Of a DNA stretch of 21,588 nt, positions 1 to 17,569 are shown piece after piece. Source of the stretch: Corynebacterium rhinophilum (GTDB taxonomy: Bacteria > Actinomycetota > Actinomycetes > Mycobacteriales > Mycobacteriaceae); the NCBI RefSeq assembly GCF_030227225.1, contig NZ_JASPHQ010000026.1:1-21588 (forward strand). The letters run 5' to 3'. How positions within the stretch are numbered: the stretch's first letter is position 1; each line of letters begins with the position of its first letter. The notes under the pieces are model-generated. The model was not told where the DNA came from and searched no databases. It saw nothing but the letters and a program-made list of their open reading frames with translations. Both the position numbers and the translations under genes were made by a program.

Positions 1-655
1 TGATTCATCGTTGGTGAACTGCACCCTGTTGCGGGTAGCTTTACGCAGTTCATTGTTGAATGATTCAATCGAATTCGCCGTCATAGATTACCTTTCTGAC
101 TGCTGGCGGGAACTGCAGAAACGGTACGAAACGCGCCCAAGCATCTCGCCAGACTTTGACTGAGCGTGGATACTTTTCTGCTAATTCAGAGGCTTCAAAT
201 TCGTCTAAAGCAACCTGTGCTGTGGTTTCATCCGCGGCGGTGTAGATCTTTTTCAACGCGGCCGATACGCCCCGGCGATCCCCGTAGGTGACCTGCCGGT
301 TAGCGGCACGAATCAGGTGCACGATACAGGTTTGCACCATAGAGTGCGGCCAGGTTGCCTCTACTGCTTCCGGCAGGCCTTTCAGCCCGTCACAGCAGAC
401 GATAAAGACGTCTTTGGCCCCACGATTAGCCAGGTTAGAGCACACCTGCGCCCAGAAGGAAGCACCTTCTTCTTTGGCAATCCACAACCCCACAATGTGC
501 TTAATACCGTCAAGATCCACACCAATTGCCATGTACGCGGACTTGTTGACCACTCGGCCACCGTCGCGGACTTTAATGCGCAGCGCATCCAGGAAAATGA
601 CGGGGTAGAATTCGTCTCACTGGCGGTTGTGCCAGACCATGACCTCATCGCCGAC
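1..655 (-). pseudogene. IS256-family (mutator-type) transposase remnant
   Basis: The minus strand encodes the middle of a DDE transposase of the IS256 family. The readable frame starts with DEFYPVIFLDALRIK (about 616-572), which carries the first catalytic Asp. It continues through VFIVCCDGLKGLPEAV (second Asp) to FPPAVRKVIY near 83. Two lesions are visible. An in-frame TGA at 617-619 sits where the family has a residue just before DEFYPV, and upstream of it only a short stretch (DEVMVWHNRQ) is recognisable. A one-base frameshift near 80-85 moves the last part (NSIESFNNELRKATRNR, with the catalytic Glu) into another frame, and the original frame stops at 65-67. The N-terminal DNA-binding part is missing and the C-terminus runs off the window. 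The copy should be inactive. The right boundary (about 655) is approximate. Confidence 0.88.
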
Positions 656-4282: not shown

Positions 4283-5512
4283 CTATTGGCGGTAGCTTAC
4301 TAAGAAATTGCCCAAGCGTTCGATGGCGTTTTCTAATTGGGAGGCCCAGGGCAGCGTGACCACGCGGAAGTGATCCGGGTGCGGCCAGTTGAAGCCGGTG
4401 CCTTGGACCATGAGGATCTTTTCCGCCTTGAGGATGTCCAACATGAGCTTGGAATCATCGTGAATCTCATAGACATTGGGATCCAAACGCGGGAAGAGGT
4501 ACAGCGCGCCCTTGGGCTTTACCGCGGAAACGCCCGGAATCTCATTGAGCTTGTCATAAGCGATATTGCGCTGGCGCAGCAATCGTCCCCCAGCCCCGGT
4601 GAGCTCGTAGATAGATTGGCGCCCGCCCAGTGCCACTTGGATGGCGTGTTGCGCGGGAACATTCGGGCACAGGCGGGTACCGGCCAACAATTCGAGTCCC
4701 TCAATGAGCCCGTGCGCATGATGCTTCGGACCCGTAATGACCATCCAGCCCGCGCGGTAGCCGCATACTCGGTAGGCCTTGGACAGGCCATTAAAGGTAA
4801 AGGTCAAGAGATCGGGGGCCAGCGAGGCGATGGAGATATGCTTCGCATCGTCATAAAGGATGCGGTCATAAATCTCATCGGCCAAGATGAGCAGGTTGTG
4901 CTCGCGCGCGATATCCACGATTTGTTGCAGGACCTCGCGCGAGTACACCGCACCGGTTGGGTTATTCGGGTTGATGACCACGATGGCCTTGGTCTTTTCG
5001 GTGACCTTGGATCTAATATCCTCGATAGACGGATTCCATTCATCTTCCTCATCGCATAGGTAGTGCACTGGTGTGCCACCGGCCAGCGAGGTTGCCGCCG
5101 TCCACAGCGGGTAATCGGGCGCTGGGATGAGGATCTCATCGCCGTTATTGAGCAGCGCCTGGGTGGTCATGGTGATAAGTTCTGATACGCCATTGCCTAA
5201 GAAGACATCGTTGATATCAAAATGCGGGAAATCTTCGAGCTCATAGCGCGTGACGATGGACCGCCGGGCCGAGGTAATGCCCTTAGAGGTGGAATAGCCC
5301 TGGGAGGTGGGCAGGGCGCTGATCATATCGCGCATGATGACATCGGGTGCATCGAAGCCAAAGACGGCGGGGTTGCCGGTATTGAGCTTGAGGATGGTGT
5401 GGCCGTCCAGCTCCATTCTCTCCGCTTCCGCTGAGACCTCACCGCGAATATCGTAAGCGATGCCCTTTAATTTTTCGGACTGGTCAAAGATGCGGGGTTT
5501 GGGAGAAGTCAT
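4283..5512 (-). CDS. alaT: Alanine aminotransferase (class I PLP-dependent)
   Basis: 409 residues. It transfers amino groups between alanine/pyruvate and glutamate/2-oxoglutarate, with PLP bound as a Schiff base. The sequence follows Corynebacterium glutamicum AlaT closely: RIFDQSEKL and KLNTGNPAVFGFDAPDVI near the N-terminus, NPNNPTGAVY at 181-190, ADEIYD with Asp212 and Tyr215 for the cofactor, and the PLP lysine Lys245 in NGLSKAYR. The C-terminal VTLPWASQLENAIERLGNFL is also typical. It is shorter at the N-terminus than C. glutamicum AlaT, which has about 28 extra residues before RIFDQSEK; the ATG here fits the gene arrangement because CACAAT lies six bases upstream and suggests a leaderless start. 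Upstream is the DUF1707 gene (55-base gap), downstream the YibE/F gene. Confidence 0.95.
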   Translation of the reverse strand: MTSPKPRIFDQSEKLKGIAYDIRGEVSAEAERMELDGHTILKLNTGNPAVFGFDAPDVIMRDMISALPTSQGYSTSKGITSARRSIVTRYELEDFPHFDINDVFLGNGVSELITMTTQALLNNGDEILIPAPDYPLWTAATSLAGGTPVHYLCDEEDEWNPSIEDIRSKVTEKTKAIVVINPNNPTGAVYSREVLQQIVDIAREHNLLILADEIYDRILYDDAKHISIASLAPDLLTFTFNGLSKAYRVCGYRAGWMVITGPKHHAHGLIEGLELLAGTRLCPNVPAQHAIQVALGGRQSIYELTGAGGRLLRQRNIAYDKLNEIPGVSAVKPKGALYLFPRLDPNVYEIHDDSKLMLDILKAEKILMVQGTGFNWPHPDHFRVVTLPWASQLENAIERLGNFLVSYRQ

Positions 5513-5567
5513 GGCAATATTGTGCCATCTTTCACAGCGTTAAGAAATATTGCAGCGCGCCTCAGCG

Positions 5568-6218
5568 CTATTTATTATTCCACTTGTTGATTTGCTTCTT
5601 CGCCATTTCCATAGCCTGACCAGTAAGTTCACCGGCCTGTTGGCGGCGCTCGGCCCACTTTTTCTTTTCTAATTCTTTTTGGTGCGCCCGCTCGTGTGCC
5701 GTCAGCGCACGGATCTCGCGCTGCTGTTGGCGCTCAATCTGCCGCACCGAGGGGGCATGCCACGATTGCGGGCCCACCTTGGCCACGTACAAGAGGATCC
5801 ACACGATGGGAATGAGCGCTGCGGCTACGGCGCCACCCGCCAGCAACCAGGGGCTATTCATGGTGGCGCTGAGCATGACAAGAGTAGGAGATGCCGCGAT
5901 CAAAATGATCGAGCTGGTCAGGGCGGTAGCGATACGAGGCTTCTTCGCGGCATTAGCGGCGCGGTCCACATCGCCTTGGGAGTAGATCTTTACCTCTTGC
6001 GATCCGGTCGCAGGGATATCGCTGAAAATTGGTGCTAGGTCCTTGTGGGTAACGGCCTGCATGACGCTATCGGAGCGCTCCTCAAACTCGGTCATCGATA
6101 AGCGGCCTTCGCCCACTGCGCGGGCTAGATCCGTCAGGGCATCGTTGCGCTCTGAATCAGATAGACGCAGTGTCCGGTCATAGGGGGAGGGTCCGTAGCT
6201 ATTAGTCACAGTCACCAT
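5568..6218 (-). CDS. DUF1707 domain membrane protein
   Basis: About 216 residues. The N-terminal DUF1707 (SHOCT-like) domain reads LRLSDSERNDALTDLARA-VGEGRLSMTEFEERSD and ends near IFSDIP, a pattern found in many small actinobacterial proteins of unknown role. Two TM segments follow (SSIILIAASPTLVMLSATM and SPWLLAGGAVAAALIPIVWI). The last 70 residues are highly charged (QQQREIRALTAHERAHQKEL and on) and likely helical or coiled, probably cytoplasmic. The start is uncertain. A TTG at 6227, the ATG at 6218 and a GTG at 6209 are in frame, none with a Shine-Dalgarno. TATTAT at 6217-6222 looks like a -10 box, which would make GTG 6209 a leaderless start. No specific function can be assigned. Confidence 0.85.
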   Translation of the reverse strand: MVTVTNSYGPSPYDRTLRLSDSERNDALTDLARAVGEGRLSMTEFEERSDSVMQAVTHKDLAPIFSDIPATGSQEVKIYSQGDVDRAANAAKKPRIATALTSSIILIAASPTLVMLSATMNSPWLLAGGAVAAALIPIVWILLYVAKVGPQSWHAPSVRQIERQQQREIRALTAHERAHQKELEKKKWAERRQQAGELTGQAMEMAKKQINKWNNK

Positions 6219-6232
6219 AATAGACAAGCTGA

Positions 6233-6270
6233 TTCAAAAAGAATATGCCCTGCCGCGGTGGCAGGGCATA
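6233..6270 (-). terminator. Strong Rho-independent terminator after the antiporter gene
   Basis: TATGCCCTGCC (6244-6254) and GGCAGGGCATA (6260-6270) form a perfect 11-bp stem with a 5-base loop. On the minus strand it is followed by TTCTTTTTG. It lies 22 bases past the antiporter stop and separates that gene from the DUF1707 gene, so the latter needs its own promoter. Confidence 0.9.
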
Positions 6271-6292
6271 GCTTCTAGTGCGGAGTAAAAGA

Positions 6293-7600
6293 TTAGAGTT
6301 CTTGGGACTCTTCTTCCTTGTCGTCCTCGTTAGAATCCGATTTCTTCTTTGGGTCGGATTCATCAACCGTCTTGGAGTCTTTCCTTCCCACCAAGTTGGC
6401 CAGAAACGGGAAGATGGCAACGGTCAACGCGCCACCTGCAACGAAGATCGAGGCGGTTTCTTGCTTCATCAATTCGGAATTAACCGCCAGCGATGTCACA
6501 GCAACGATGATCGGCAGGCCGGTAGCCGTGTACAAACTGACCTGCAGGCGTTCGCGCACCGTTTCAATTTCGGAGCCGGTGTGACCCACATTCTCGCGCA
6601 GGAATACCGGCAGGCCGCGGGTAACGAGAATAAGCGCCGGGATGCCCAGTACCTTCCCCGGGTTATTAGCGATGGTATCCCAGTTAATCGTCATGCCAGA
6701 GACCACGAAGAAGACCGGGATGAGCATGGAGTGGAAGACCACATCGAGGCGGTGTTCTAGCCGGCGATGGAATTCATCCGGAATGATGCGGTTCAAGATG
6801 ATGCCGGCGGCGAAGGCACCCAGCACGATGTCTAGCTCAAAGACCGCCGTGATGGCCATGAGGGTGGCAAGGATCAGGATGATAAGGCGCAAAATGGTCT
6901 GGTTGGTGGACCCTGCACCGGAGATAAACGCCGCTTTAACCCACGGAATCGTCGTGGCAATGGCAGCCGGCATGATGGCGACGGCCACGGCGATGCCGAT
7001 GAACGCGAGCATAATTAGCAGCGTGGTCCACGTGGAGCGCGTGCTGAGCAGCAGGGCCATCGCGGTAATGGGGGCGACCTCACCAATAGCACCGTGAATC
7101 ATGACCGATTTGCCCACTTTGGTCTCGAGCACGCGATCCTGTTTCAACATGGGCTGAAGTGTGCCCAGTGCCGTGGACGTTAGCGCCAGCGCCACCACGA
7201 TGGCACCCGGGACATTATCGACCAAGAAGTACGCACCGACACCACAGGCCACGAGGCAGATAAGCCAGGTGGACAGCGCAGTTCCCGCTTCTTTGGTCTT
7301 GAGCGTAGAAATCTCGATTTCAAAACCGGCGAGCAAGAAGAGCGCACCGACACCCAGCTCTTTCAGCATGCTGATGCCGGCATCCTCATGCGCGACATCC
7401 AAAAGCGATGGGCCGATGACCATGCCAAAGATGATCAAAAGGGCAACGGCTGGCAGCCGATTGCCCAACATGAACGACACTATGGGCGCCAGTAGCGCCG
7501 CAAGCATGATCCAGGCAAAGGAAACGAGGCTAGTGGTGTTTTCCGTCGCACCTGCTGCCAGAACAAAAGTATCCGCAGCCCATCCCACATCTAATTGCAT
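6293..7600 (-). CDS. CPA2-type cation:proton antiporter
   Basis: 435 residues. The protein is a Na+/H+ exchanger-like (CPA2 fold) membrane carrier with about 12 hydrophobic segments. Recognisable family stretches are LPAVALLIIFGMVIGPSLLD, ELGVGALFLLAGFEIE, the unwound-helix region VVALALTSTALGTLQPML, and VFELDIVLGAFAAGIILNR. The acidic/Lys tail (residues about 405-435, DESDPKKKSDSNEDDKEEES) should be cytoplasmic and unstructured. No TrkA/RCK regulatory domain is attached. It lies 34 bases downstream of etfD but has no Shine-Dalgarno, and a -10-like TACGCT sits seven bases before the ATG, so it may have its own leaderless promoter. The ion (Na+ or K+) cannot be told from the sequence. Confidence 0.88.
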   Translation of the reverse strand: MQLDVGWAADTFVLAAGATENTTSLVSFAWIMLAALLAPIVSFMLGNRLPAVALLIIFGMVIGPSLLDVAHEDAGISMLKELGVGALFLLAGFEIEISTLKTKEAGTALSTWLICLVACGVGAYFLVDNVPGAIVVALALTSTALGTLQPMLKQDRVLETKVGKSVMIHGAIGEVAPITAMALLLSTRSTWTTLLIMLAFIGIAVAVAIMPAAIATTIPWVKAAFISGAGSTNQTILRLIILILATLMAITAVFELDIVLGAFAAGIILNRIIPDEFHRRLEHRLDVVFHSMLIPVFFVVSGMTINWDTIANNPGKVLGIPALILVTRGLPVFLRENVGHTGSEIETVRERLQVSLYTATGLPIIVAVTSLAVNSELMKQETASIFVAGGALTVAIFPFLANLVGRKDSKTVDESDPKKKSDSNEDDKEEESQEL

Positions 7601-7607
7601 GAATCAC

Positions 7608-7637
7608 AGCGTACGCACTCACCCCTGCACATGCCTA
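7608..7637 (-). promoter_or_regulatory. Candidate leaderless promoter of the antiporter gene
   Basis: On the minus strand TAGGCA (7632-7637) and TACGCT (7608-7613) are 18 bases apart, and the ATG begins seven bases after the -10. The -35 overlaps the etfD stop codon. The -10 fits the loose TAnnnT pattern of corynebacteria. Confidence 0.4.
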
Positions 7638-10475
7638 CTCGGTATTCGCGTCCTTCGGCGGCTCCGGTGGCTTGGGGGCCTTGGGAGCCTCTGCGCTTTC
7701 CGATGACGCCGGTGGTGCCGGTGGTGCCGGCGGAGCGGGCGGCATGGCCGATGCCGGCGGAGCAGGAGGCGCGGGTGGTGCCGCTGCCTCGGGTTTCTTG
7801 TCGGCCTGCGGTGGCTTTGGCGCTGCTGGAGCCTGTGGCGCCTTGGCAGCTTGCGGAGCCTTTGGTGGCTGTGGAGCTGCAGGTGGTTGTGGCGTAGTTG
7901 GTGCTTGCGAAGCAGCGGGTGGCTGCGGGGCCTTAGGCGGCTGGGGTGCCGCGGGTGCCTTGGCATTAGGTGCAGCCGGCGGAGTCGGGGCACCTGGAGT
8001 TGCCGGAGCACTTGGTGCTGCTGGAGCGCTCGGAGCCGCCGGGGCGCTCGGTGCCGAAGGAGCACTCGGAGCGGCAGGGACCTTGGGAGCCTTTGGCGGC
8101 GTGGGAGCACCCGGTGGGGTTGGCGCGCTAGGCGCGGAGGGAGCACTCGGTGCGCTGGGTGCCGAAGGGGCCTTGGGGGCAGCCGGGGTAGAAGGAGCCT
8201 TTGGCGCGGATGGAGCCGCAGCATTGGGGGCCGCGGGAGTCGTCGGAGCAGAGGGCGCGCTTGGAGCCGCCGGTGCCGAAGGAGCAGAAGGCGCGGCGGG
8301 TGGCGTGGTAGCGGTGGGGGTGTTGGTAGAGGAGGGGGCATCGGCAGGCGCGGGTGCCTTGGGGGATTCAGCGGTAGCGGTAGCTGAAGCCGCACGGTGG
8401 CGCACTGGGGTGCCCAAAAAGGCCTTGGGGCGGGGTTCTGGAAGGGTGCCCTTGTCATCCAGGGAAATGGAGTTGCGCAGCATGGTGGCCACGTCGTTGA
8501 CCTGTGTGGTGGGGGTGGACTCGGCGGCCAGAGACTTCACGCCGCCGGTCATCATGACATTGCAGAACGGGCAGCCAGTGGCGATTTCCTCGGCGCCGGT
8601 CTCCAGTGCCTGCTCCGTGCGGAACCCATTGATGCGAGACCCCAGCTTTTCTTCCATGAACATGCGCGCGCCACCAGCGCCGCAGCAAAAGGCCTCATCG
8701 CGGGACTTGTCCATCTCGCGCAGCTCCACGCCCGTGGCCTCGAGAAGCTCGCGCGGGGGATCGAAGACCTTATTGTGGCGGCCCAAGAAGCACGGATCGT
8801 GGTAGGTGATGGGCTTGCGGTTTTCCGGGGTGCGCGGAACCGGCTGCAGCAGTTTCTCGCGCACCAGGCGGTTGAGCAGCTGCGTGTGGTGGAAGACATC
8901 GAAATGCCCGTCAAAGTCCGGGTACTCATTGCGGATGGTATTAAAGCAGTGCGGGCAGGTCGTGATGATTTTCCGCTGGCCTTCCGGCACGCCCTCGAAA
9001 GCGTTGTTGAGTGTTTCAACGTTTTGTTGCGCCATCATCTGGAACAAAAACTCGTTGCCGGCGCGGCGGGCGGGATCGCCGGTGCAGGTCTCACCAGTAG
9101 AAAGCACACCGAATTTCACGCCGGCGGTGTGGAGAAGATCCACGACGGCGCGGATGGTGCGGCGGCCATTGTCATCATAAGCGCCGGCGCAGCCTACCCA
9201 GAGAAGGTATTCCATATCGGAGAAGTCCGCGGCATCCTCGCCAATGATGGGGACCTCGATGCCATCAGCACGCGCCTCATCAATCCAGGCGCGGCGCTCG
9301 GAATTATTGCGGCCCCAGGGGTTGCCCTTGGTCTCCATGTTCTTAAATAGGCCGGTAAGCTCCGATGGGAAATCGGATTCTGCCAAAACCTTGAAGCGGC
9401 GCAGGTCTGCAATATGGTCAATGTGCTCGATATCGGTGGGGCACTGATCCACGCAGGCACCGCAGTTGGTGCAGGACCACAGGACATCATCGTCGATGAC
9501 GCCAGCCATCGAGAGCACATCGAGGCCCTCGTGCGGGTTGTAATTATCTAGCGCGCCTTGGCGCAAGTCCATCATGACCTTTTTGGGGCTGAGCGGCTTA
9601 TCGGTATTCCAGGCCGGGCACAGCTCTTGGCAGCGGCCGCACTCGGTGCACGCGGTTGAATCCAGCAGCATCTTCCAGCTGCCAGGGGTGATGTCTTCTT
9701 CCAAGTCCGGGGTGGGCAGGGATTTGAGCGCCTTTTCCCCAGAGGTATTGCGCTGGAAAAAGATATTGAAAAACGCCATGAAGCGGTGCCACATGACACC
9801 CCACTGGAATTTGCGGGAAATAAAGAAGATGAAAAGGAGCCCGGATAGCAACTTGACCAAGGCGAAGAAGCTGACCAGTGCCGGGGATTCGGGCAGTGCC
9901 TTAGCTAAGTGAATAGTCAAGAAATCCGCGACTGCGGAACCGCCACCAAAAGCTGCGATTTTGGAGGCTTTGACCAAGAGCATGCTGAGGCCCTCGATGA
10001 AAACGATGGCCTCCACCCAGCGGGCCGCTGCCGTTTGGGAGTTGAAAAAGCGGCTGCCGCGCTCGGTATCGCCTAGTTTCAGGCGCACGCCGATGAGGAA
10101 GCAGATGCCCAGCACCGTGCCGATGCCAAGTACTTCTTCCACAAAGTGATACACCGGCCAGGTGCTTAAGCCGGGCCACCCTTTATCCGGGGCGAAGGTT
10201 TGAATATAGGCCTCAAACCACACCAGGATGCCGAATAAGAAGCCCACCATGACCGCCCAGTGGGCGGCATTGACCAATGGTTTTCCCTTGAAGTGGGTGT
10301 GGCCGAAGACCTCTGCCAGCACGCGCCCGAGGCGTTTTACGGGGCTATTGGTGCGCTCTAGTTGGGTTGGCCCGCCCGAGCGGATGAACTTAATGAGCGC
10401 GCCTATGCGGGCGAAAAAGTATAGCCACACCGGAATCGATGTGGCTATAGCAATCCAACCGGACACGGTTGTCAT
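7635..10475 (-). CDS. etfD: EtfD-like membrane Fe-S oxidoreductase with Pro/Ala-rich tail
   Basis: 946 residues. Residues 1-240 form a membrane anchor with about five or six hydrophobic segments. A ferredoxin-like domain has two 4Fe-4S motifs (Cys276/279/282/286 and Cys335/338/341/345). Two CCG domains follow, with Cys429, Cys507/510 and Cys562, Cys597-598, Cys635/638. This is the layout of HdrD/GlcF-like proteins and of mycobacterial Rv0338c (EtfD), which passes electrons from acyl-CoA dehydrogenases through ETF to the quinone pool; that role is inferred by family. The ATG at 10475 has a good AAGGAG. From residue 696 to the end the protein is low-complexity Pro/Ala. A palindrome sits in its likely promoter, so it is probably expressed separately from the DUF2236 gene upstream. 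Confidence 0.9.
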   Translation of the reverse strand: MTTVSGWIAIATSIPVWLYFFARIGALIKFIRSGGPTQLERTNSPVKRLGRVLAEVFGHTHFKGKPLVNAAHWAVMVGFLFGILVWFEAYIQTFAPDKGWPGLSTWPVYHFVEEVLGIGTVLGICFLIGVRLKLGDTERGSRFFNSQTAAARWVEAIVFIEGLSMLLVKASKIAAFGGGSAVADFLTIHLAKALPESPALVSFFALVKLLSGLLFIFFISRKFQWGVMWHRFMAFFNIFFQRNTSGEKALKSLPTPDLEEDITPGSWKMLLDSTACTECGRCQELCPAWNTDKPLSPKKVMMDLRQGALDNYNPHEGLDVLSMAGVIDDDVLWSCTNCGACVDQCPTDIEHIDHIADLRRFKVLAESDFPSELTGLFKNMETKGNPWGRNNSERRAWIDEARADGIEVPIIGEDAADFSDMEYLLWVGCAGAYDDNGRRTIRAVVDLLHTAGVKFGVLSTGETCTGDPARRAGNEFLFQMMAQQNVETLNNAFEGVPEGQRKIITTCPHCFNTIRNEYPDFDGHFDVFHHTQLLNRLVREKLLQPVPRTPENRKPITYHDPCFLGRHNKVFDPPRELLEATGVELREMDKSRDEAFCCGAGGARMFMEEKLGSRINGFRTEQALETGAEEIATGCPFCNVMMTGGVKSLAAESTPTTQVNDVATMLRNSISLDDKGTLPEPRPKAFLGTPVRHRAASATATAESPKAPAPADAPSSTNTPTATTPPAAPSAPSAPAAPSAPSAPTTPAAPNAAAPSAPKAPSTPAAPKAPSAPSAPSAPSAPSAPTPPGAPTPPKAPKVPAAPSAPSAPSAPAAPSAPAAPSAPATPGAPTPPAAPNAKAPAAPQPPKAPQPPAASQAPTTPQPPAAPQPPKAPQAAKAPQAPAAPKPPQADKKPEAAAPPAPPAPPASAMPPAPPAPPAPPASSESAEAPKAPKPPEPPKDANTE
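7638..8390 (-). repeat. Low-complexity Pro/Ala repeat region inside etfD
   Basis: The last 251 codons of etfD encode tripeptide-like repeats in three zones: APSAPSAP units (about residues 726-835), PQPPKAPQ units (about 845-895) and APPAPPAPP units (about 900-930), ending in a charged PKPPEPPKDANTE. Units vary in codon use, so this is protein-level repetition rather than an exact DNA tandem repeat. The tail should be extended and cytoplasmic. Confidence 0.9.
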
Positions 10476-10581: not shown

Positions 10582-11481
10582 TTAGTAGTGGAAACCGCCT
10601 TCAGCTTCCGCCTTCTCAAAGGCGCGGGTAGCAATAGGAACCATGCGTGCTTTACGCGGAAGGACGGAGAAGACGCCACGGACGGCGCGGGAGAAGATCT
10701 TGAGCTTGCGCTCATCCTTCTTGGTCCACTCCCAGCCAAGCTTGTTGCGCAGCTTGTCCGGAATCATGCCGATAGCAACCCACAACAGCAGGCGGGATGC
10801 GTAAGGTGCAATGGGCTTCCACAGCCAGTTGGGCACCTTGGGATCTGGGGTGTCGAGGGTGAGGCCGTTGATGATGCGGGAGCGCTCGATGGTTTCGCTG
10901 ATATCGAGGGTATCGATCATGTTGTCCACGTACTCTTCAAACTCAGCGTACGTCTTTGGCGCATCGTCGGGCTCTGCAACCTCGTAGAAGGTGTACCAGG
11001 TACGGGTCTCCTGGAAGAGCTGCTCGCGCTCCTCTGGGGTCAAAGGATCCATGAAGTTGCCGGCCAGCTGGTACGGCATTGCAGCGAAGGTGGCGTGTGC
11101 CCAGTAGTAAACATCCGGGTTCAGCGGGTGGTAGCGGCTTCCATCTGGGTGGGTGCCCTTGATGTCCTTGTGGAAGTCACGAATCATGACGCCAACTTCT
11201 GGGCCTTCATAGATCGTGCGGATGATCGGGAAGGCGGAGCGAACCAAGCGTGCAACCTCGTTATCAAAAACGTTGGAGTGCTGCACCAGGGACCGGCTGA
11301 CGTCACGCTGGGCAATCTGCAAAAGACCAGCAGACAGTGCGACGAATGCGGAGCGCCAGTCACCAAAGCGCTGCCACAGGATGGAATCTGGGCCCAGCTC
11401 AGGCAGGTTATCGGTATTGTTATCTGCGGTCTGGGTGTGCTTGTCGTTTACAGTGCTTTCAGGATTGCTCAGAGTAGTCAT
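10582..11481 (-). CDS. DUF2236 (MpaB/Lcp-like oxygenase family) protein A
   Basis: 299 residues with a DUF2236 domain, the family of MpaB and of the heme-containing latex-clearing protein Lcp. The core is IRDFHKDIKGTHPDGSRYHP followed by LNPDVYYWAHATF. His129 in WAHAT is the best candidate for an axial heme ligand, and His104 and His118 are also conserved in the second copy at 14119-15195. No signal peptide or Tat motif is present, so unlike secreted Lcp it should act inside the cell or at the inner face of the membrane. The ATG overlaps the flavoprotein stop by one base (TAATG) with AAGGAGG inside the upstream gene, which indicates translational coupling and a shared task. Substrate unknown; oxidation of a lipid or isoprenoid is inference. 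Confidence 0.85.
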   Translation of the reverse strand: MTTLSNPESTVNDKHTQTADNNTDNLPELGPDSILWQRFGDWRSAFVALSAGLLQIAQRDVSRSLVQHSNVFDNEVARLVRSAFPIIRTIYEGPEVGVMIRDFHKDIKGTHPDGSRYHPLNPDVYYWAHATFAAMPYQLAGNFMDPLTPEEREQLFQETRTWYTFYEVAEPDDAPKTYAEFEEYVDNMIDTLDISETIERSRIINGLTLDTPDPKVPNWLWKPIAPYASRLLLWVAIGMIPDKLRNKLGWEWTKKDERKLKIFSRAVRGVFSVLPRKARMVPIATRAFEKAEAEGGFHY

Positions 11482-12287
11482 TATGCCTCCTTAAGGGCAG
11501 TAGCGGACTTTTGTTGATTCTGGCGTTCAGACGAGGAGGACTCAGGGGCATAGTTGGATGCTCGCTTGAAATCATGGGCCGGTGCATCGAACCCTGCGAG
11601 CACTTCGCGGATTCCGCGTACGGTACCGGGCTGAACCAACCACTTATCGTGCTTGACGGTTAGTTCTCCTGGTCCACGAATCTCGAGCTGGCGGACGTAA
11701 CGACGGCAGTGATCGGCGCGGGCTTCGATGACAGCCAGTGGGCGACGTTTGAGGTAAGAGTCGCGCGGGGTGGGGCCGTCAACGAAGAGGGCATTAGGCA
11801 GCCCAAATACCTCTACACCGTGGTGGAGGTACATGTCGTCGACGCTGGCCTTTGACCGTCCCGGAACGGAAATCCACGGGGATTCCTCACCGGTGGCGCG
11901 AATCAACACATCGAAAGCTTGGGTTTCCTGACCAGAATCACCGAGGTAGGAGATTTCCCATTTGCCTTCTGCACGGTCGAATTCGGCACCCGTAACGGCA
12001 GTGGAACCACGGAACTCGGCGCCACTGGCAGCAACAGCCTCTTCAAGGTGGCGTACTACAGAAGCTGGCGAGCCATCAGTTTTGGTGAGGCGGAGGTACG
12101 GGGTACGGAAGTGGTACTTCCGGGAAACCTCGGTGGCTTCAGCGGAATTGAAGTGGCCGCCGATGTATGGTTCTTGTTCAAAAAGAACGGTGTCGAATCC
12201 AGAGAATGCGCATTCAGAAGCCGCGGCGCATCCGGCTACTCCGGCACCAACCACTGCGACAGTCGGTCGGCGGTATGGCTTGAACAT
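11481..12287 (-). CDS. Short FAD-dependent oxidoreductase lacking an NADPH domain
   Basis: 268 residues from the ATG at 12287, chosen because AAAGGAAC lies just before it; an in-frame GTG at 12308 has no such site. Residues 9-45 hold the FAD dinucleotide fold (VAVVGAGVAGCAAA, then Glu37, then IGGHF). DVLIRATGEESPWISVPG (126-143) is the second FAD motif of Baeyer-Villiger and flavin monooxygenases. The sequence then goes straight to EVFGLPNALFVDGP (159-172) and VIEARADHCRRYVRQL, which resemble the C-terminal FAD part of those enzymes. The NADPH-binding domain of about 170 residues that normally lies between them, and its FxGxxxH fingerprint, are absent. It may accept electrons from a partner or act as an oxidase. 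It is coupled to the DUF2236 gene downstream. Confidence 0.8.
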   Translation of the reverse strand: MFKPYRRPTVAVVGAGVAGCAAASECAFSGFDTVLFEQEPYIGGHFNSAEATEVSRKYHFRTPYLRLTKTDGSPASVVRHLEEAVAASGAEFRGSTAVTGAEFDRAEGKWEISYLGDSGQETQAFDVLIRATGEESPWISVPGRSKASVDDMYLHHGVEVFGLPNALFVDGPTPRDSYLKRRPLAVIEARADHCRRYVRQLEIRGPGELTVKHDKWLVQPGTVRGIREVLAGFDAPAHDFKRASNYAPESSSSERQNQQKSATALKEA

Positions 12288-12340
12288 ACTGTTCCTTTCG
12301 AGTTTCACAGGGCGCTTACTGGCCGCTGTGTGTTGTGCAA

Positions 12341-12370
12341 TTTATATTCCCAGAGGACACAATTCGTGAA
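12341..12370 (-). promoter_or_regulatory. Promoter of the flavoprotein-DUF2236 A operon
   Basis: On the minus strand TTCACG (12365-12370) and TATAAA (12341-12346) are separated by 18 bases, in a 166-base gap after the aldehyde dehydrogenase gene. The predicted mRNA leader is about 45-50 bases and ends in the AAAGGAAC ribosome site. Confidence 0.5.
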
Positions 12371-12375
12371 TATGT

Positions 12376-12389
12376 TGTGATCGTACACA
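12376..12389. promoter_or_regulatory. Operator-like palindrome TGTGATCGTACACA
   Basis: Inverted repeat TGTG-AT-CG-TA-CACA six bases upstream of the -35 box of the flavoprotein operon. A related but differently spaced palindrome lies in front of the other DUF2236 gene (15229-15244). The position upstream of -35 would suit an activator. Confidence 0.4.
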
Positions 12390-12453
12390 CATACCCATTG
12401 AATGTGAAGTGAGTTACTGAATTTAAAAGGTGGCTGGTTACGCTGCGCAGTGC

Positions 12454-14040
12454 TTAGGGGAGGAAGCGCAAGGCTTTTCCTAAGCGCAACGCGGAGCTCA
12501 GCAGGGTGCCGTAGTACTTATTGGGAAGCCAATTTGGTCCGCGCATCGGCATGATCCTTTGCGAGGAGATATTCTTTGCTTCCGTATATTTGGTCAATCC
12601 CTCGTGGCCATGGCGGCGACCAACGCCAGACTCCTTGACGCCACCCAACGGGGTGGAAATTGAGGCCCACGTGGAGGCGTAGCCGTCATTGATGGTCACG
12701 CTGCCTGCATCGATTTTCTCAGCGATGCCTTGCGCGGTTTCGGGTTGGCCGAATACAGAGGAGTTCAGACCGTAGGGCAATTTATTCGCCTGCTCGATGG
12801 CCTCTTCGACATCGCGCACGCGTTGCACGTACACCACGGGGCCAAAGACCTCTTGCTCTGCAAGCTCGGTGCCTTCTGCCAAATCAGTGAGAACCGTGGG
12901 CTCAAAGTGGTAGGGGCCAATATCCGGGCGGGGCTTGCCGCCGGTAATAACGGTGGCACCCTTATCTACGGCATCGTCGACAAAGTGCTGCACCACATCT
13001 AGTTGGTTTTGGCCGATGAGTGAACCCATCGTGTAGTCCCAGTTCAAACCGGAACCAAGTTTGATGGATTCGGTTGCCCGGCGGAATGCGGTAATGAATT
13101 GATCGAAGATGGCATCGGGGACGTAGATGCGTTCAATCGACACGCACAGCTGGCCCGAATTGGAAAAGCAAGCGGTAGCGATGGTGTCAATATGCTTGTC
13201 GATGTCCGCATCCGGCGCGATGATCATCGGGTTCTTACCACCCAGTTCTGCGGAGTATCCGACGAGGCGCTCGCCTACGGTGGCGCCCAAAATCTTGCCG
13301 GTCTTGGTGGAACCGGTAAACATCAGGTAATCGCAGTGTTCGGAGATGGCTGAGCCAACGACTCGACCGGAGCCGGTAACGATCTGCAGCAAATCCTTCG
13401 GCAGTCCTGCTTCCTTCAAGAGGTAGAGGGAAATCAGGTTAGAAAACGGGGTGGATCCATCGGGCTTGGCCACAACGCCATTGCCGGCAAGCAGTGCCGC
13501 AACGGCATCGGAAATGCCCAATGCTAATGGATAGTTCCACGGGCTGATTTGCCCCACAACGCCCTTAGGAACTCGCTGCAAGTGCGTTTTGGTGATGAGC
13601 GGAAATGCGCCCGGCTGCTTCTGGGTGGCCAATAGCTTTGGCGCATTATTTGAGTAATAACGCGCGTTATTTAGTACGTCGAGTACCTCATCAAAGGCGG
13701 CCGTGCGGTCCTTGCCGGTTTCCAATTGGATGAAATCCGCAAGCAGCTCGCGGTGTTTAGCCACGAGGTGGTGGAAGCGCTTCATTACCTTTACGCGCTG
13801 TTTAACGTCGGTATCGGCCCAGGCCTTTTGGGCCTGACGCGAACGGCGGAAAGCTTCATCTACGTCTTCTTCGGAACCTACTCCAACCCAGCCTAATTCT
13901 TCTTCAAATAAGGGGGAGTGGACCGCTTTGCGTTCGCCTTTATCCAGCGAACCGGTGGAGTAGTTAGTGGTGAGATGTTGTAGCTCAGTTAGTAATTGCT
14001 GTGGCAAGGGCCGTTCTTGTAGACGGCGTGGTAAAGACAT
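12454..14040 (-). CDS. gabD2: GabD2-type aldehyde (succinic semialdehyde) dehydrogenase
   Basis: 528 residues from the ATG at 14040, which has GGAG ten bases upstream; a GTG three codons earlier is less likely. It oxidises an aldehyde to the acid with NAD(P)+. Visible ALDH features are SPWNYP with Asn169, Lys192 in VVAKPDGST, FTGSTKTGK, the general base Glu265 in AELGGKNP, and the catalytic Cys299 in CFSNSGQLCVSIERIYV. The CFSNxGQLC, SIERIYV and GVGRRHGHEG stretches are shared with mycobacterial GabD2 (Rv1731), hence the symbol. True succinic semialdehyde activity is not assured: the neighbours suggest that its aldehyde could come from a DUF2236 oxygenase. It follows the longer DUF2236 gene after 78 bases that hold a hairpin. 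Confidence 0.9.
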   Translation of the reverse strand: MSLPRRLQERPLPQQLLTELQHLTTNYSTGSLDKGERKAVHSPLFEEELGWVGVGSEEDVDEAFRRSRQAQKAWADTDVKQRVKVMKRFHHLVAKHRELLADFIQLETGKDRTAAFDEVLDVLNNARYYSNNAPKLLATQKQPGAFPLITKTHLQRVPKGVVGQISPWNYPLALGISDAVAALLAGNGVVAKPDGSTPFSNLISLYLLKEAGLPKDLLQIVTGSGRVVGSAISEHCDYLMFTGSTKTGKILGATVGERLVGYSAELGGKNPMIIAPDADIDKHIDTIATACFSNSGQLCVSIERIYVPDAIFDQFITAFRRATESIKLGSGLNWDYTMGSLIGQNQLDVVQHFVDDAVDKGATVITGGKPRPDIGPYHFEPTVLTDLAEGTELAEQEVFGPVVYVQRVRDVEEAIEQANKLPYGLNSSVFGQPETAQGIAEKIDAGSVTINDGYASTWASISTPLGGVKESGVGRRHGHEGLTKYTEAKNISSQRIMPMRGPNWLPNKYYGTLLSSALRLGKALRFLP

Positions 14041-14072
14041 GTAATGCACGCTCCAGAAAGATCAATGAAAAG

Positions 14073-14098
14073 GTTCGTGAGCTAAAAAGCTCACGAAC
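14073..14098 (-). terminator. Hairpin between DUF2236 B and the aldehyde dehydrogenase gene
   Basis: GTTCGTGAGCT (14073-14083) and AGCTCACGAAC (14088-14098) form a perfect 11-bp stem with a 4-base loop. On the minus strand it is followed by CTTTTCATT, a poor U-run. It may be a partial terminator or an mRNA-processing site that lowers expression of the downstream aldehyde dehydrogenase relative to the oxygenase. Confidence 0.6.
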
Positions 14099-14118
14099 AA
14101 TAAGGAAGCCGGTATGTT

Positions 14119-15195
14119 TTAGAACGGGCAGCCGGCTGCACGGCGTGCGGCTACTGCATCATCGGAATCCGGTTTGTCGGTAGATTCCGCGGTGGCAGCA
14201 GAGTCCTTAGCCTGGGTGGCGTTGTAGCCTTGGATCTTCTTCGGCTCCTTGTACTTGCCCTCGATCATCCCGTTCTTGATCATCAAGGAACGACCCGGCT
14301 CCATGTAGCGCTTATCCTCTGGGAGGTGGTCCATGATGAAGCGAACGGACTTAGCGATGCGGTCGAAGCGCTTCTGGTCGCGCTTGGTCCACTTCAGCTC
14401 CAAGATGTCGCGGTACTTCTGCGGCAGGGTAGCCACAGTCAACCAGATGGCGCTGCGCATAATGGGCTTCCAGATAACCTTCCATACGGCCTCTGGAACG
14501 CCTTCCGGAGCCTTGACCGGCTCTACGCGTGCGGTGCGCAGTGCGAAGTCAACGGTCTCGTTGCGCTCAAGCACGGTGTCTGCCATCTCATCCATGTACT
14601 TGATCAAGTCATCGTAGTTATCAATGACCGGGCGCTCAGACATGCCGTACTTATCCCACCAAGTCACGCCCTCGCGAACGATTTGGTCGCGCTCTTCCTT
14701 GGTGAACGGGGTACCGAAGAGCTCTTGGGCGTAGATAACGCGGTAGACGAAGGTAGCGTGTGCCCAGTAGTAAGTCTCTGGGTTCAAGGAGTGGTAACGC
14801 TCGCCATTTTGCAGCGTGCCCTTAATAGTGACGTGGTAGTCGCGAATGCGCTCACCGATGTCCCCATCATCGTAGATGGACTCAATAATCTGCGGCGTAG
14901 AGCGCTGCAGGCGGGCGAAAGGTTCGTCGAAGAACTTCGAGTGGTCCAAAAGGGACTGACCAATCGCGGGGTGCATATTCTGCAAAATGCCGGTGTAGCC
15001 ACGCAGCAGCTGCAGGCGGTTATCCGAGCCCCACTTCCACAACAGGGAATCCGGTCCCAAAGGAGCGCGGCGCAGTTCGCGCTTTTCTTCCTTCTTGTCC
15101 TGAGCGTTTACTTCTTCTGCACCGGACTGAGGGGAATCAATGTGGGTATTTTCTTCGTTTGCCTGTGTATTTTCGGGTTTCAGTGAGTTGGACAA
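14119..15195 (-). CDS. DUF2236 (MpaB/Lcp-like oxygenase family) protein B
   Basis: 358 residues. The TTG at 15195 is chosen because AAGGAGGG lies five bases upstream; the open frame continues 26 codons further but through promoter-like DNA. Residues 1-45 are charged and Gln/Glu-rich. The DUF2236 core contains RIRDYHVTIKG, GERYHSLNPETYYWAHATF with His146 as likely heme ligand, then EERDQIVREGVTWWDKYG. It shares the RDxHxxIKG, YHxLNP and YYWAHATF motifs with protein A, and WTKRDQKRFDRIAKSVR matches WTKKDERKLKIFSRAVR there, so the two are paralogues. It has an extra C-terminal region of about 50 polar residues ending RRAAGCPF. No export signal. It is first in the minus-strand block and divergent from the DUF6230 operon. 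Substrate unknown. Confidence 0.85.
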   Translation of the reverse strand: MSNSLKPENTQANEENTHIDSPQSGAEEVNAQDKKEEKRELRRAPLGPDSLLWKWGSDNRLQLLRGYTGILQNMHPAIGQSLLDHSKFFDEPFARLQRSTPQIIESIYDDGDIGERIRDYHVTIKGTLQNGERYHSLNPETYYWAHATFVYRVIYAQELFGTPFTKEERDQIVREGVTWWDKYGMSERPVIDNYDDLIKYMDEMADTVLERNETVDFALRTARVEPVKAPEGVPEAVWKVIWKPIMRSAIWLTVATLPQKYRDILELKWTKRDQKRFDRIAKSVRFIMDHLPEDKRYMEPGRSLMIKNGMIEGKYKEPKKIQGYNATQAKDSAATAESTDKPDSDDAVAARRAAGCPF

Positions 15196-15228
15196 TTCGA
15201 CCCTCCTTAGTCGATAAAATCTGTTGAT

Positions 15229-15299
15229 TGTGTAGCGTAACACACACCGGTGCACACCTATTACATGGCGCACAAATTTGGGGGTGCAACTTTGTGCGC
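15229..15299. promoter_or_regulatory. Palindrome-rich control region upstream of DUF2236 B
   Basis: Three inverted repeats lie within 71 bases. TGTGTAGCGTAACACA (15229-15244) overlaps a possible extended -10 (TGTTACGCT on the minus strand). CACCGGTG (15245-15252) is a perfect 8-bp palindrome. GCGCACAAA (15268-15276) and TTTGTGCGC (15291-15299) are a perfect 9-bp inverted repeat with a 14-base spacer. No convincing -35 box is seen. Confidence 0.5.
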
Positions 15300-15607: not shown

Positions 15608-16186
15608 ATGGGCAGGATTAGTATTCCAAAGTTTGCAACCGCACTGACTGCCGGGCTTGCAGCTTTTGGTGTAACAGGTTTTGCGGTAGCCCAAGGCGGC
15701 TTGACCGCTAATATCGCACTTTCAGGAACCTTCTTTAAGGTGAACATGAGCCACCTGGAGGGCGAAGGACTGTCGATCTTCGTTGATAGGGACAAGATGG
15801 GAGAAGAAACCATCCCCGCCGCGCGCTTGAAGTTTGAGCACGCCGTGGCTTCCAACTTGTGCCTGTCCGCCAACCTTCCTGATGTCCCAGGGATTGGCGA
15901 GACCACCTTCGCCCTCCGTGCGAATGGTGATGACAGTGTGGAGGTAGAGAACCTCTTGGTTGGTGCTACCGACATTAAGGGTCAGCTGGATCTGACGAAT
16001 GCCAACGTGGGTATTGATGCCAGCCAGGTCAATGACAAGGCTGATCCAGGTTCGTGGGGATTGTACGCGCAGAAGGTGACCCTGAGCGCGGATGATATTC
16101 GCACGACCTCGGTGGGAGCAGAAAGGCTCGCTGCCTCTGGTGTGAATGTGACGGTGAAGAGGGGAAGCAACAACAATGGCTGCTAA
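15608..16186 (+). CDS. Secreted DUF6230 family protein
   Basis: 192 residues. A signal peptide covers residues 1 to about 28 (IPKFATALTAGLAAFGVTGF, then AVA-QG as likely cleavage site). The mature part matches the DUF6230 family known from Streptomyces: LSGTFFKVNMSHLEGEGLSI after the signal, two Cys (in SNLCLSANLP and at the very C-terminus), VEVENLLVGATDIKG, and ALYAQK-like GLYAQKVTLSADDIRTTSVG. Predicted to be mainly beta strand. The two cysteines could bond. The ATG has GAAAGG at a normal distance. It overlaps the next gene by 11 bases, and the pairing with DUF6114 is the same as in Streptomyces. The molecular role is unknown; it is presumably at the cell envelope. Confidence 0.85.
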   Translation: MGRISIPKFATALTAGLAAFGVTGFAVAQGGLTANIALSGTFFKVNMSHLEGEGLSIFVDRDKMGEETIPAARLKFEHAVASNLCLSANLPDVPGIGETTFALRANGDDSVEVENLLVGATDIKGQLDLTNANVGIDASQVNDKADPGSWGLYAQKVTLSADDIRTTSVGAERLAASGVNVTVKRGSNNNGC

Positions 16187-16943
16187 GTCTTCTGATGATG
16201 AGACTTTGCGCATGCCTGCGGTGAACGAAACCGGTACCGATAACGGCGAAGCTGCACGCAGCGCCCAAGATTCTTCCCAAGAGCCGGCCGGACATGCCGC
16301 TGGCGAGGCCGCCGCTGGCACCGATCACACTAGTGCTGCGGAGACGAAGGCCGACGGCACCGCTGATGCTGGTGCTGAAGCAACGGCTGCGGCGGAAAGC
16401 GATGGAGAGAACTCATCGCAGTCGGTAGCGGATGCGGTAAAAAGTGCTAATGAACCGCAGGATTCCGCAGCGAATAACAAAAATGACAAAGCCGTCACCC
16501 GAGTGGCCCCTAAAGAAAGCTGGTGGCAGCGGTTTAAACACTGGCGCAAGCGTCGTCCGTTCGCGGGTGGTTTGTTGCTTATCTTGTCCGGCATCGCCAT
16601 CGCAGCGCCGGCTTATATTACTGTGCGCATTTCTGATCTGCTGGTCATGATTTCCACGGTGTCTGGCGTTTCGACGCTTCTTATTGGTGCGGCACTAATC
16701 ATGTTCGGCTTTGGATCTTGGTTTAGGCAGGAGACATCGTCTTACCTGGGTGTTTTAGCCATCTTGGTAGCAATCATCGCGCTTCCCACCACAAACCTGG
16801 GCGGCTTCGTGATTGGTAGCCTTTTGGGCATTATCGGTGGTGCGCTCGCATTTGCCTGGCAGCCACAGGAGCGCCAGAAGTCTCCTAAGAAGCACAAGAA
16901 GAAGAAAAAGTCCCAGGCCAAAGAACTGGCGGTTTCAGCATGA
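16176..16943 (+). CDS. DUF6114 family membrane protein with long acidic N-terminus
   Basis: 255 residues. Residues 1 to about 107 are disordered, rich in Ala, Asp, Glu and Ser, and probably cytoplasmic. The DUF6114 domain starts at WWQRFKHWRKRRPFAGG (116-132). It has four hydrophobic segments (about 129-147, 153-175, 180-200 and 206-227), with TNLGGFVIGSLLGIIGGALA as the most conserved stretch. A Lys-rich tail follows (PKKHKKKKKSQAKE). The start lies inside the DUF6230 gene, with GAGGGG ten bases upstream, so translation is coupled. The acidic head and basic tail could contact each other or membrane lipids. Function unknown; it is presumably the membrane partner of the two secreted proteins encoded on each side. 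Confidence 0.85.
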   Translation: MAAKSSDDETLRMPAVNETGTDNGEAARSAQDSSQEPAGHAAGEAAAGTDHTSAAETKADGTADAGAEATAAAESDGENSSQSVADAVKSANEPQDSAANNKNDKAVTRVAPKESWWQRFKHWRKRRPFAGGLLLILSGIAIAAPAYITVRISDLLVMISTVSGVSTLLIGAALIMFGFGSWFRQETSSYLGVLAILVAIIALPTTNLGGFVIGSLLGIIGGALAFAWQPQERQKSPKKHKKKKKSQAKELAVSA

Positions 16944-17569
16944 AGCTATTCAGGCTGAGCTCACTACCGCGTCGTCGCTCTGCTCGTGTGGTAAAAGGTA
17001 GTGCGCTCGCAGTGCTCTGCGCTTTTACAGCGGTGTGTGCGGTGAACCAACCTGAGGAAACCCGTGCGCAGGAAGGCTTGGCCTTAGCGCAATCTGAACT
17101 CAGCACGGTGACTGCTGATAATGTCACCCTGACTGGGAACGTAAGCGCCTCGCTTATCACTGTGCCTACCGCACAGGGTGAGCAACGAGCGCTGAAACTC
17201 GTAGGTGACAAGTTGGCCGCGCGAAACCTGGCGTTGACCCTGCCCGCAGCTATGGGACAAGGCAAGCTAACCACTGGTGACGTGGAAACCACCGTCACGG
17301 ACGGGCCGGTCACCGTCCTGACCACTGGACTGCAGACAACACCCGCGGTGGTGGATCACCCCACCATCCCGGTAAACGTCGATTTATCCAACGGCGATCT
17401 CAACGCGGTGCTTGATCAATTGGGCGTTCCTGACCCGCACGTGGTGCCCGATGCTCCTATCCCGAACGTTCTGATGGAGCACATTTCGCTGCAAGATGTC
17501 ACCATGGAGCTGGTCAACCTGCAGGGCGCTAATTTGCACGCCCCGCAAGTCCAGCTCAACGTGAAGTAA
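16940..17569 (+). CDS. Secreted protein of unknown function, third gene of the DUF6230/DUF6114 operon
   Basis: 209 residues, not recognised. An Arg-rich start (LPRRRSARVVKG) and a hydrophobic core GSALAVLCAFTAVCAV form a signal peptide or N-terminal anchor; TAVC does not fit a lipobox. The mature part is rich in Thr, Val and Leu and looks all-beta, with repeated short strands (ADNVTLTGNVSASLITV, KLAARNLALTLP, HISLQDVTMELVNLQGANLH). This resembles the DUF6230 product in style, and it may be a distant relative. It overlaps the DUF6114 stop by four bases (ATGA), so the three proteins are very likely made together. It is convergent with the ABC gene, only 18 bases away, with no clear terminator. 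Confidence 0.8.
   Translation: MKLFRLSSLPRRRSARVVKGSALAVLCAFTAVCAVNQPEETRAQEGLALAQSELSTVTADNVTLTGNVSASLITVPTAQGEQRALKLVGDKLAARNLALTLPAAMGQGKLTTGDVETTVTDGPVTVLTTGLQTTPAVVDHPTIPVNVDLSNGDLNAVLDQLGVPDPHVVPDAPIPNVLMEHISLQDVTMELVNLQGANLHAPQVQLNVK

Follow-up and report, generated by a model that had tools for sequence, protein, structure and literature searches.

Three genes, which lie in a row on the forward strand of Corynebacterium rhinophilum contig NZ_JASPHQ010000026.1 and encode a DUF6230 protein, a DUF6114 protein and a third protein referred to here as P3, very probably form one conserved unit. We tentatively propose that this unit is an exported module handling fatty-acid esters or lipids outside the cytoplasm, in which case a lipid ligand, a physical complex of the products and uptake would all belong to its function. 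The order of the genes, their conservation and co-occurrence, the fusion of two of them around a signal-like segment and the predicted export signals were read from sequence. The proposal would bring two Pfam families of no known function, and a domain that no family covers, under a single theme, the use of exogenous lipid, in corynebacteria and Streptomyces, and would account for a formerly unrecognized third gene as a conserved and sometimes fused domain.

The window (the whole stretch of DNA analyzed, 21,588 nucleotides of this contig) contains the three open reading frames with exactly the two overlaps that an earlier note on this DNA had described (Table 1). Taking the start codon closest to the stop, overlap of the DUF6230 and DUF6114 genes was observed in 44 of 47 Corynebacterium loci including the window, the loci being drawn from the best 80 of 170 DUF6114 matches plus the window. 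Since all three genes are conserved in relatives and the first overlap recurs at this frequency, the arrangement appears to be more than chance. Upstream of the trio, on the other strand, are genes for two MPAB/Lcp-type oxygenases, an aldehyde dehydrogenase and a flavoprotein, and downstream, also on the other strand, are two ABC transporter genes. A fragment of a Mutator-family transposase is found at the contig start (window positions 68-553, reverse strand).

Table 1. Positions of the trio, its predicted features and the upstream gene set within the window.
Feature	Position	Strand	Description and basis
DUF6230 (PF19741) gene	15608..16186	+	192 aa; Pfam 96.2 bits, curated cut-off 27.5; predicted to be a secreted beta protein; two Cys invariant
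Predicted DUF6230 signal peptide, end AVA/Q	15608..15691	+	Sequence and hydropathy; putative cleavage place
DUF6114 (PF19609) gene	16176..16943	+	255 aa; Pfam 108.2 bits, curated cut-off 27.9
DUF6114 domain, four predicted transmembrane segments	16533..16862	+	Profile match and hydropathy
DUF6230/DUF6114 overlap, 11 bases	16176..16186	+	ORF coordinates
DUF6114/P3 overlap, 4 bases (ATGA)	16940..16943	+	ORF coordinates
P3 gene	16940..17569	+	209 aa, predicted export signal; P3 domain fused to DUF6114 in many relatives
Predicted P3 signal peptide, end TRA/Q	16940..17068	+	Sequence and hydropathy; putative cleavage place
Mature P3 domain	17072..17566	+	Predicted mostly beta, strand order resembling DUF6230; AlphaFold, hhalign
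Two MPAB/Lcp-type (rubber-oxygenase-like) proteins, flavoprotein, succinate-semialdehyde-dehydrogenase-like enzyme	10585-15273	-	Gene set upstream of the trio

The first two proteins score above the curated Pfam cut-offs of their families. Both DUF6230 and P3 start with signal-peptide-like sequences and gave AlphaFold models which were mostly beta (DUF6230 pLDDT 87.8), in agreement with the previous description of two exported beta-rich proteins. In the DUF6230 alignment two Cys residues and one Ser residue were invariant in 68/68 rows, while no His was conserved in at least 60% of these rows. An ordinary Ser-His-Asp esterase is unlikely for this reason, and membership of the alpha/beta-hydrolase esterases was considered and rejected, as there was no conserved His to complete a Ser-His-Asp/Glu triad and the model was mostly beta. 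The earlier description of the middle protein, four transmembrane segments plus an acidic head and a tail with many Lys, was confirmed, as it has four hydrophobic peaks in hydropathy analysis (residues 132-150, 157-175, 191-209 and 208-226), 21 D/E versus 8 K/R within residues 1-112 and a C-terminal tail rich in Lys. It thus shares the family score and the four predicted segments with DUF6114, and is set apart by the long acidic head and the Lys-rich tail.

The third gene, which the earlier note had grouped with the pair, proved to be conserved beside it. The locus set consisted of the window and 80 named loci, which ranked best among 170 DUF6114 matches. With an HMM seeded with the window P3 and iterated on the fetched loci, P3 was found adjoining the DUF6230-DUF6114 pair in 79 of these 81. 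Because loci next to DUF6114 also supplied the profile, this count is partly by construction, and whole-genome scans are the freer test. P3 was missing from Actinokineospora (L077) and from a Pseudonocardiaceae contig (L099). A different locus set had P3 in 96 of 99 loci but contained duplicates (L020-L037 versus L038-L117), and the 81-locus set was therefore used. Among 201 Corynebacterium genomes, P3 was present in 75 of the 76 which were DUF6230-positive versus 3 of the 125 others; the positive genome without it (G396) is 77% complete, and the three matches without DUF6230 covered 35 profile positions (G389), 115 of 158 (G498) and nearly the whole profile (G510). In a phylum-wide scan of evenly drawn genomes the P3 profile matched 11 of 296, all of them among the 19 DUF6230-positive genomes and, by printed coordinates, no more than about 2.3 kb away from DUF6230, while the scan gave no P3 match in the other 8 of the 19; in these whole-genome scans larger genomes had part of their first-look candidates scored (e.g. 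12 of 45). DUF6230 and DUF6114 were each over the cut-off in 18 genomes among 61 relatives, the same 18 as listed, and ten more distant DUF6230 loci had a DUF6114 match in 10/10 and P3 in 2/10. Copy number varied: genome G015 has two copies of the trio (L030, L037), with the DUF6230 gene of L030 broken by a frame change, and Corynebacterium genome G372 has three DUF6230 and three P3 matches. Locus L148 of genome G122 (5113-9618) contains three DUF6230 relatives by Pfam, two DUF6114 genes and a further secreted-looking protein, and the last of these DUF6230 relatives looked partly P3-like by eye.

No Pfam family was matched by the window P3 at E<=1. PF19741 was absent from the 18 Pfam families matched by 58 P3 rows, and P3 did not pass the DUF6230 cut-off. 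Profile-profile comparison with hhalign aligned P3 and DUF6230 colinearly, with probability 64 over 145 columns in one direction and 22.8 in the other, and the score of 37.0 compares with at most 21.8 across 298 column shuffles; subsets by taxon scored 14-28, most of them failing to beat the highest-scoring shuffle. The strand order of the AlphaFold models of P3 and DUF6230, compared by hand on printed output, agreed. For P3 this concerns the best of five models (pLDDT 83.8, pTM 0.78), the only good one, as the rest were at 75.7-69.7. Foldseek found no PDB match for either model at E<=0.001. The earlier suggestion that the third protein is a diverged DUF6230 relative is thus probable from the colinear match and the same strand order, with the taxon subsets giving a weaker signal, and the two proteins may have a common fold. 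The P3 alignment had a single invariant residue, P131. A metagenome protein from a 1068-base contig (P0006) joined the N-terminal end of P3 to the C-terminal end of DUF6230, which is probably an assembly artefact.

We also considered P3 as an LmeA-like phospholipid carrier, with the trio serving envelope transport of lipoglycan or phospholipid, which we judge very improbable. A reference cited in PMC7643837 describes LmeA as a phospholipid-binding protein of mycobacteria. One P3 orthologue, from C. tuberculostearicum, was just over the cut-off of Pfam LmeA (PF11209), with 27.7 bits against 27.3, and another four P3 proteins scored 21.2-25.2 bits, under the cut-off. The window P3, however, had no LmeA match, and neither did 3 of 8 P3 proteins tested, including L038 which is identical to the window P3 over the aligned part; 2 of 58 P3 rows matched at E<=1. 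Profile-profile comparison of P3 with LmeA failed (probability 7, 15 columns), and an LmeA profile made from 30 relatives reached P3 at an E value of about 0.9 only. Moreover, the genome from which the window comes has two LmeA genes over the Pfam cut-off elsewhere (G000:C7:3933-4577 and G000:C14:14744-15313).

A membrane partner for the exported proteins had been thought plausible, and natural gene fusions lend support to this. In 35 of the 81 loci (best 80 of 170 plus the window) one reading frame encoded DUF6114 and, C-terminal to it behind a signal-like segment, P3, and in 44 P3 was a separate ORF. Fused and split forms numbered 30 and 17 in Corynebacterium, all 27 Streptomyces loci were split, and the Pseudonocardiaceae had five fusions and two loci without P3 (same loci). 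Between the DUF6114 and P3 parts of the fusions, the 15-residue stretch of highest hydrophobicity averaged 1.8-2.8 on the Kyte-Doolittle scale, with net positive charge ahead of this stretch in 28/35. A loose signal-peptidase motif followed the hydrophobic stretch in 34/35 (1000 shuffles, mean 21.2, maximum 29), and the strict [AVSI]xA/Q motif was present in 21/35 (1000 shuffled segments, mean 2.8, maximum 12). Given the motif and the hydrophobic stretch, the fused gene resembles a split gene which has kept the signal peptide inside, and P3 might be cut free from the fusion at this signal-peptidase-like motif. The fixed product ratio that the earlier note proposed for the overlapping genes is putative, while a fused gene gives 1:1 synthesis of its DUF6114 and P3 parts. 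This is a possible natural example of an internal signal peptide within a bacterial fusion protein. A more specific version of our proposal is in our opinion doubtful. In it, DUF6114-P3 would be a natural bacterial polyprotein, a four-helix membrane protein with a C-terminal part that the internal signal peptide exports and signal peptidase releases, so that secreted partner and membrane half arise 1:1. With DUF6230 this would make up a heteromeric system for lipid capture, its fold having had no PDB match here, and lipid-dependent actinobacteria would use it to obtain fatty acids from esters of the host or the environment.

These fusions, together with the overlapping genes and the similar fold layout of DUF6230 and P3 by hhalign and AlphaFold, would also fit a structural envelope complex, a heteromeric surface structure made of the two exported proteins and held in place by DUF6114. 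We nevertheless consider such a complex quite improbable, since the signal-peptidase-like motif in 34/35 fusions, the patchy spread in Corynebacterium, unlike that of a core structure, and the occurrence of the trio in Streptomyces all speak against it, as would, if they belong to DUF6230, the proteins annotated as cholesterol esterase in the culture fluid of S. scabiei (PMC5158115). As to the mycolate outer membrane, in which the earlier note proposed to localize the proteins, Streptomyces do not have one, and because the trio is also found in these organisms a mycolate-specific structure is not supported and a specific role in that membrane is unlikely. Handling of exogenous lipid is the likelier theme.

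The pairing of DUF6230 and DUF6114 in Streptomyces was confirmed, as the gene order DUF6230-DUF6114-P3 of the window was common to 27/27 Streptomyces loci (best 80 of 170), where downstream of the trio, on the opposite strand, lay a gene from a cluster with a pyruvate kinase as representative. By Pfam, in locus L083 acetate kinase and phosphate acetyltransferase genes come past pyruvate kinase, while upstream of the trio lie genes for a thioredoxin-TPR protein and a TetR regulator. PMC7494193 gives pyk2 as SCO5423 and reports a 'cholesterol esterase', SCO5420, to be almost 37-fold up on Tween. As SCO5420 sits three genes before pyk2, the adjoining pyruvate kinase points to SCO5420 being the DUF6230 protein, and by synteny SCO5420, SCO5421 and SCO5422 would correspond to DUF6230, DUF6114 and P3. 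Within Pfam the two families do lack an assigned function, as stated earlier, whereas in Streptomyces 'cholesterol esterase' seems to be the annotation of the DUF6230 protein. Synteny and this annotation suggest that DUF6230 may be the actinomycete cholesterol esterase family of Xiang 2007. The founding papers behind the name are said to be Xiang 2006 and 2007, and a Streptomyces enzyme was reportedly purified. The DUF6230 protein of the window was 21-28% identical to 10 Streptomyces rows (alignment A3). In two further studies, S. scabiei proteins annotated as cholesterol esterase were extracellular, one of them being highest among the lipid-class rows shown (PMC5158115), which would favor an exported lipid module if they are DUF6230 proteins, and, against such a module, a putative cholesterol esterase of SirexAA-E was up on xylose and xylobiose, not lipid (PMC12772271).

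Alternatively, DUF6230 itself could be a secreted esterase whose active site is unusual, with DUF6114 and P3 as helpers in its export, folding or release. The annotation and Tween induction of SCO5420, the titles of the two Xiang papers as they appear among references, and the invariant Ser and two Cys agree with an esterase, while the family alignment without a conserved His does not, and esterase activity in corynebacteria is putative. A helper role also fits P3 less well than that of a second ligand domain, given its own export signal, its likeness to DUF6230 and its one invariant residue. Overall we regard this reading as unlikely.

In the lipid-handling module which we favor, DUF6230 would be exported and released by signal peptidase and would probably bind, and may hydrolyze, fatty-acid esters, as a member of the family of SCO5420 by synteny. 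P3 would be a second exported beta domain, probably from a DUF6230-like ancestor, which in many relatives would be synthesized at the C-terminal end of a DUF6114 precursor, to be freed or remain tethered at the internal signal peptide. The DUF6114 four-helix membrane protein would be their common membrane partner. Many corynebacteria live on skin, and in those which require lipid the module may help to obtain fatty acids from host lipids; if it does supply fatty acids to corynebacteria unable to make their own, their life on host lipids would rest in part on it.

DUF6230 was patchy in Corynebacterium (76/201 genomes), and with PF08354 as marker of FAS-I it was found in 36 of 52 FAS-I-less versus 40 of 149 FAS-I-positive genomes (odds ratio 6.1, Fisher p 1.2e-7). 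The genome from which the window comes had no FAS-I (PF08354) match. On an rpoB tree of 120 of the 201 genomes (150 with listed places), where the Fisher p was 0.0086, a model of dependent evolution gave LR 9.2 with 4 df (p 0.055). This tree took 45 of the 52 FAS-I-less genomes, 61 of the 76 DUF6230-positive and 44 of the 109 FAS-I-positive without DUF6230, and included genome G471 of the same species in place of the window's own genome, which was left out. With this tree-corrected p the association of DUF6230 with FAS-I loss is suggestive only; 16 of 52 FAS-I-less genomes are without DUF6230 and 40 DUF6230 genomes keep FAS-I, which counts against the lipid reading.

Relatives of all four genes upstream of the trio were found near it in 13 of 80 loci (best 80 of 170), in Corynebacterium, and none of the remaining 67 stretches, which extend about 6 kb each side at most, showed the complete set. 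In six of the 13 loci all four were upstream, in six there were two upstream and two downstream, and in one (L056) all were downstream. The set has thus stayed by the trio despite being rearranged, a hint that the two share a role in lipid oxidation, and we would guess that these oxygenases, flavoprotein and dehydrogenase oxidize host lipid, e.g. squalene.
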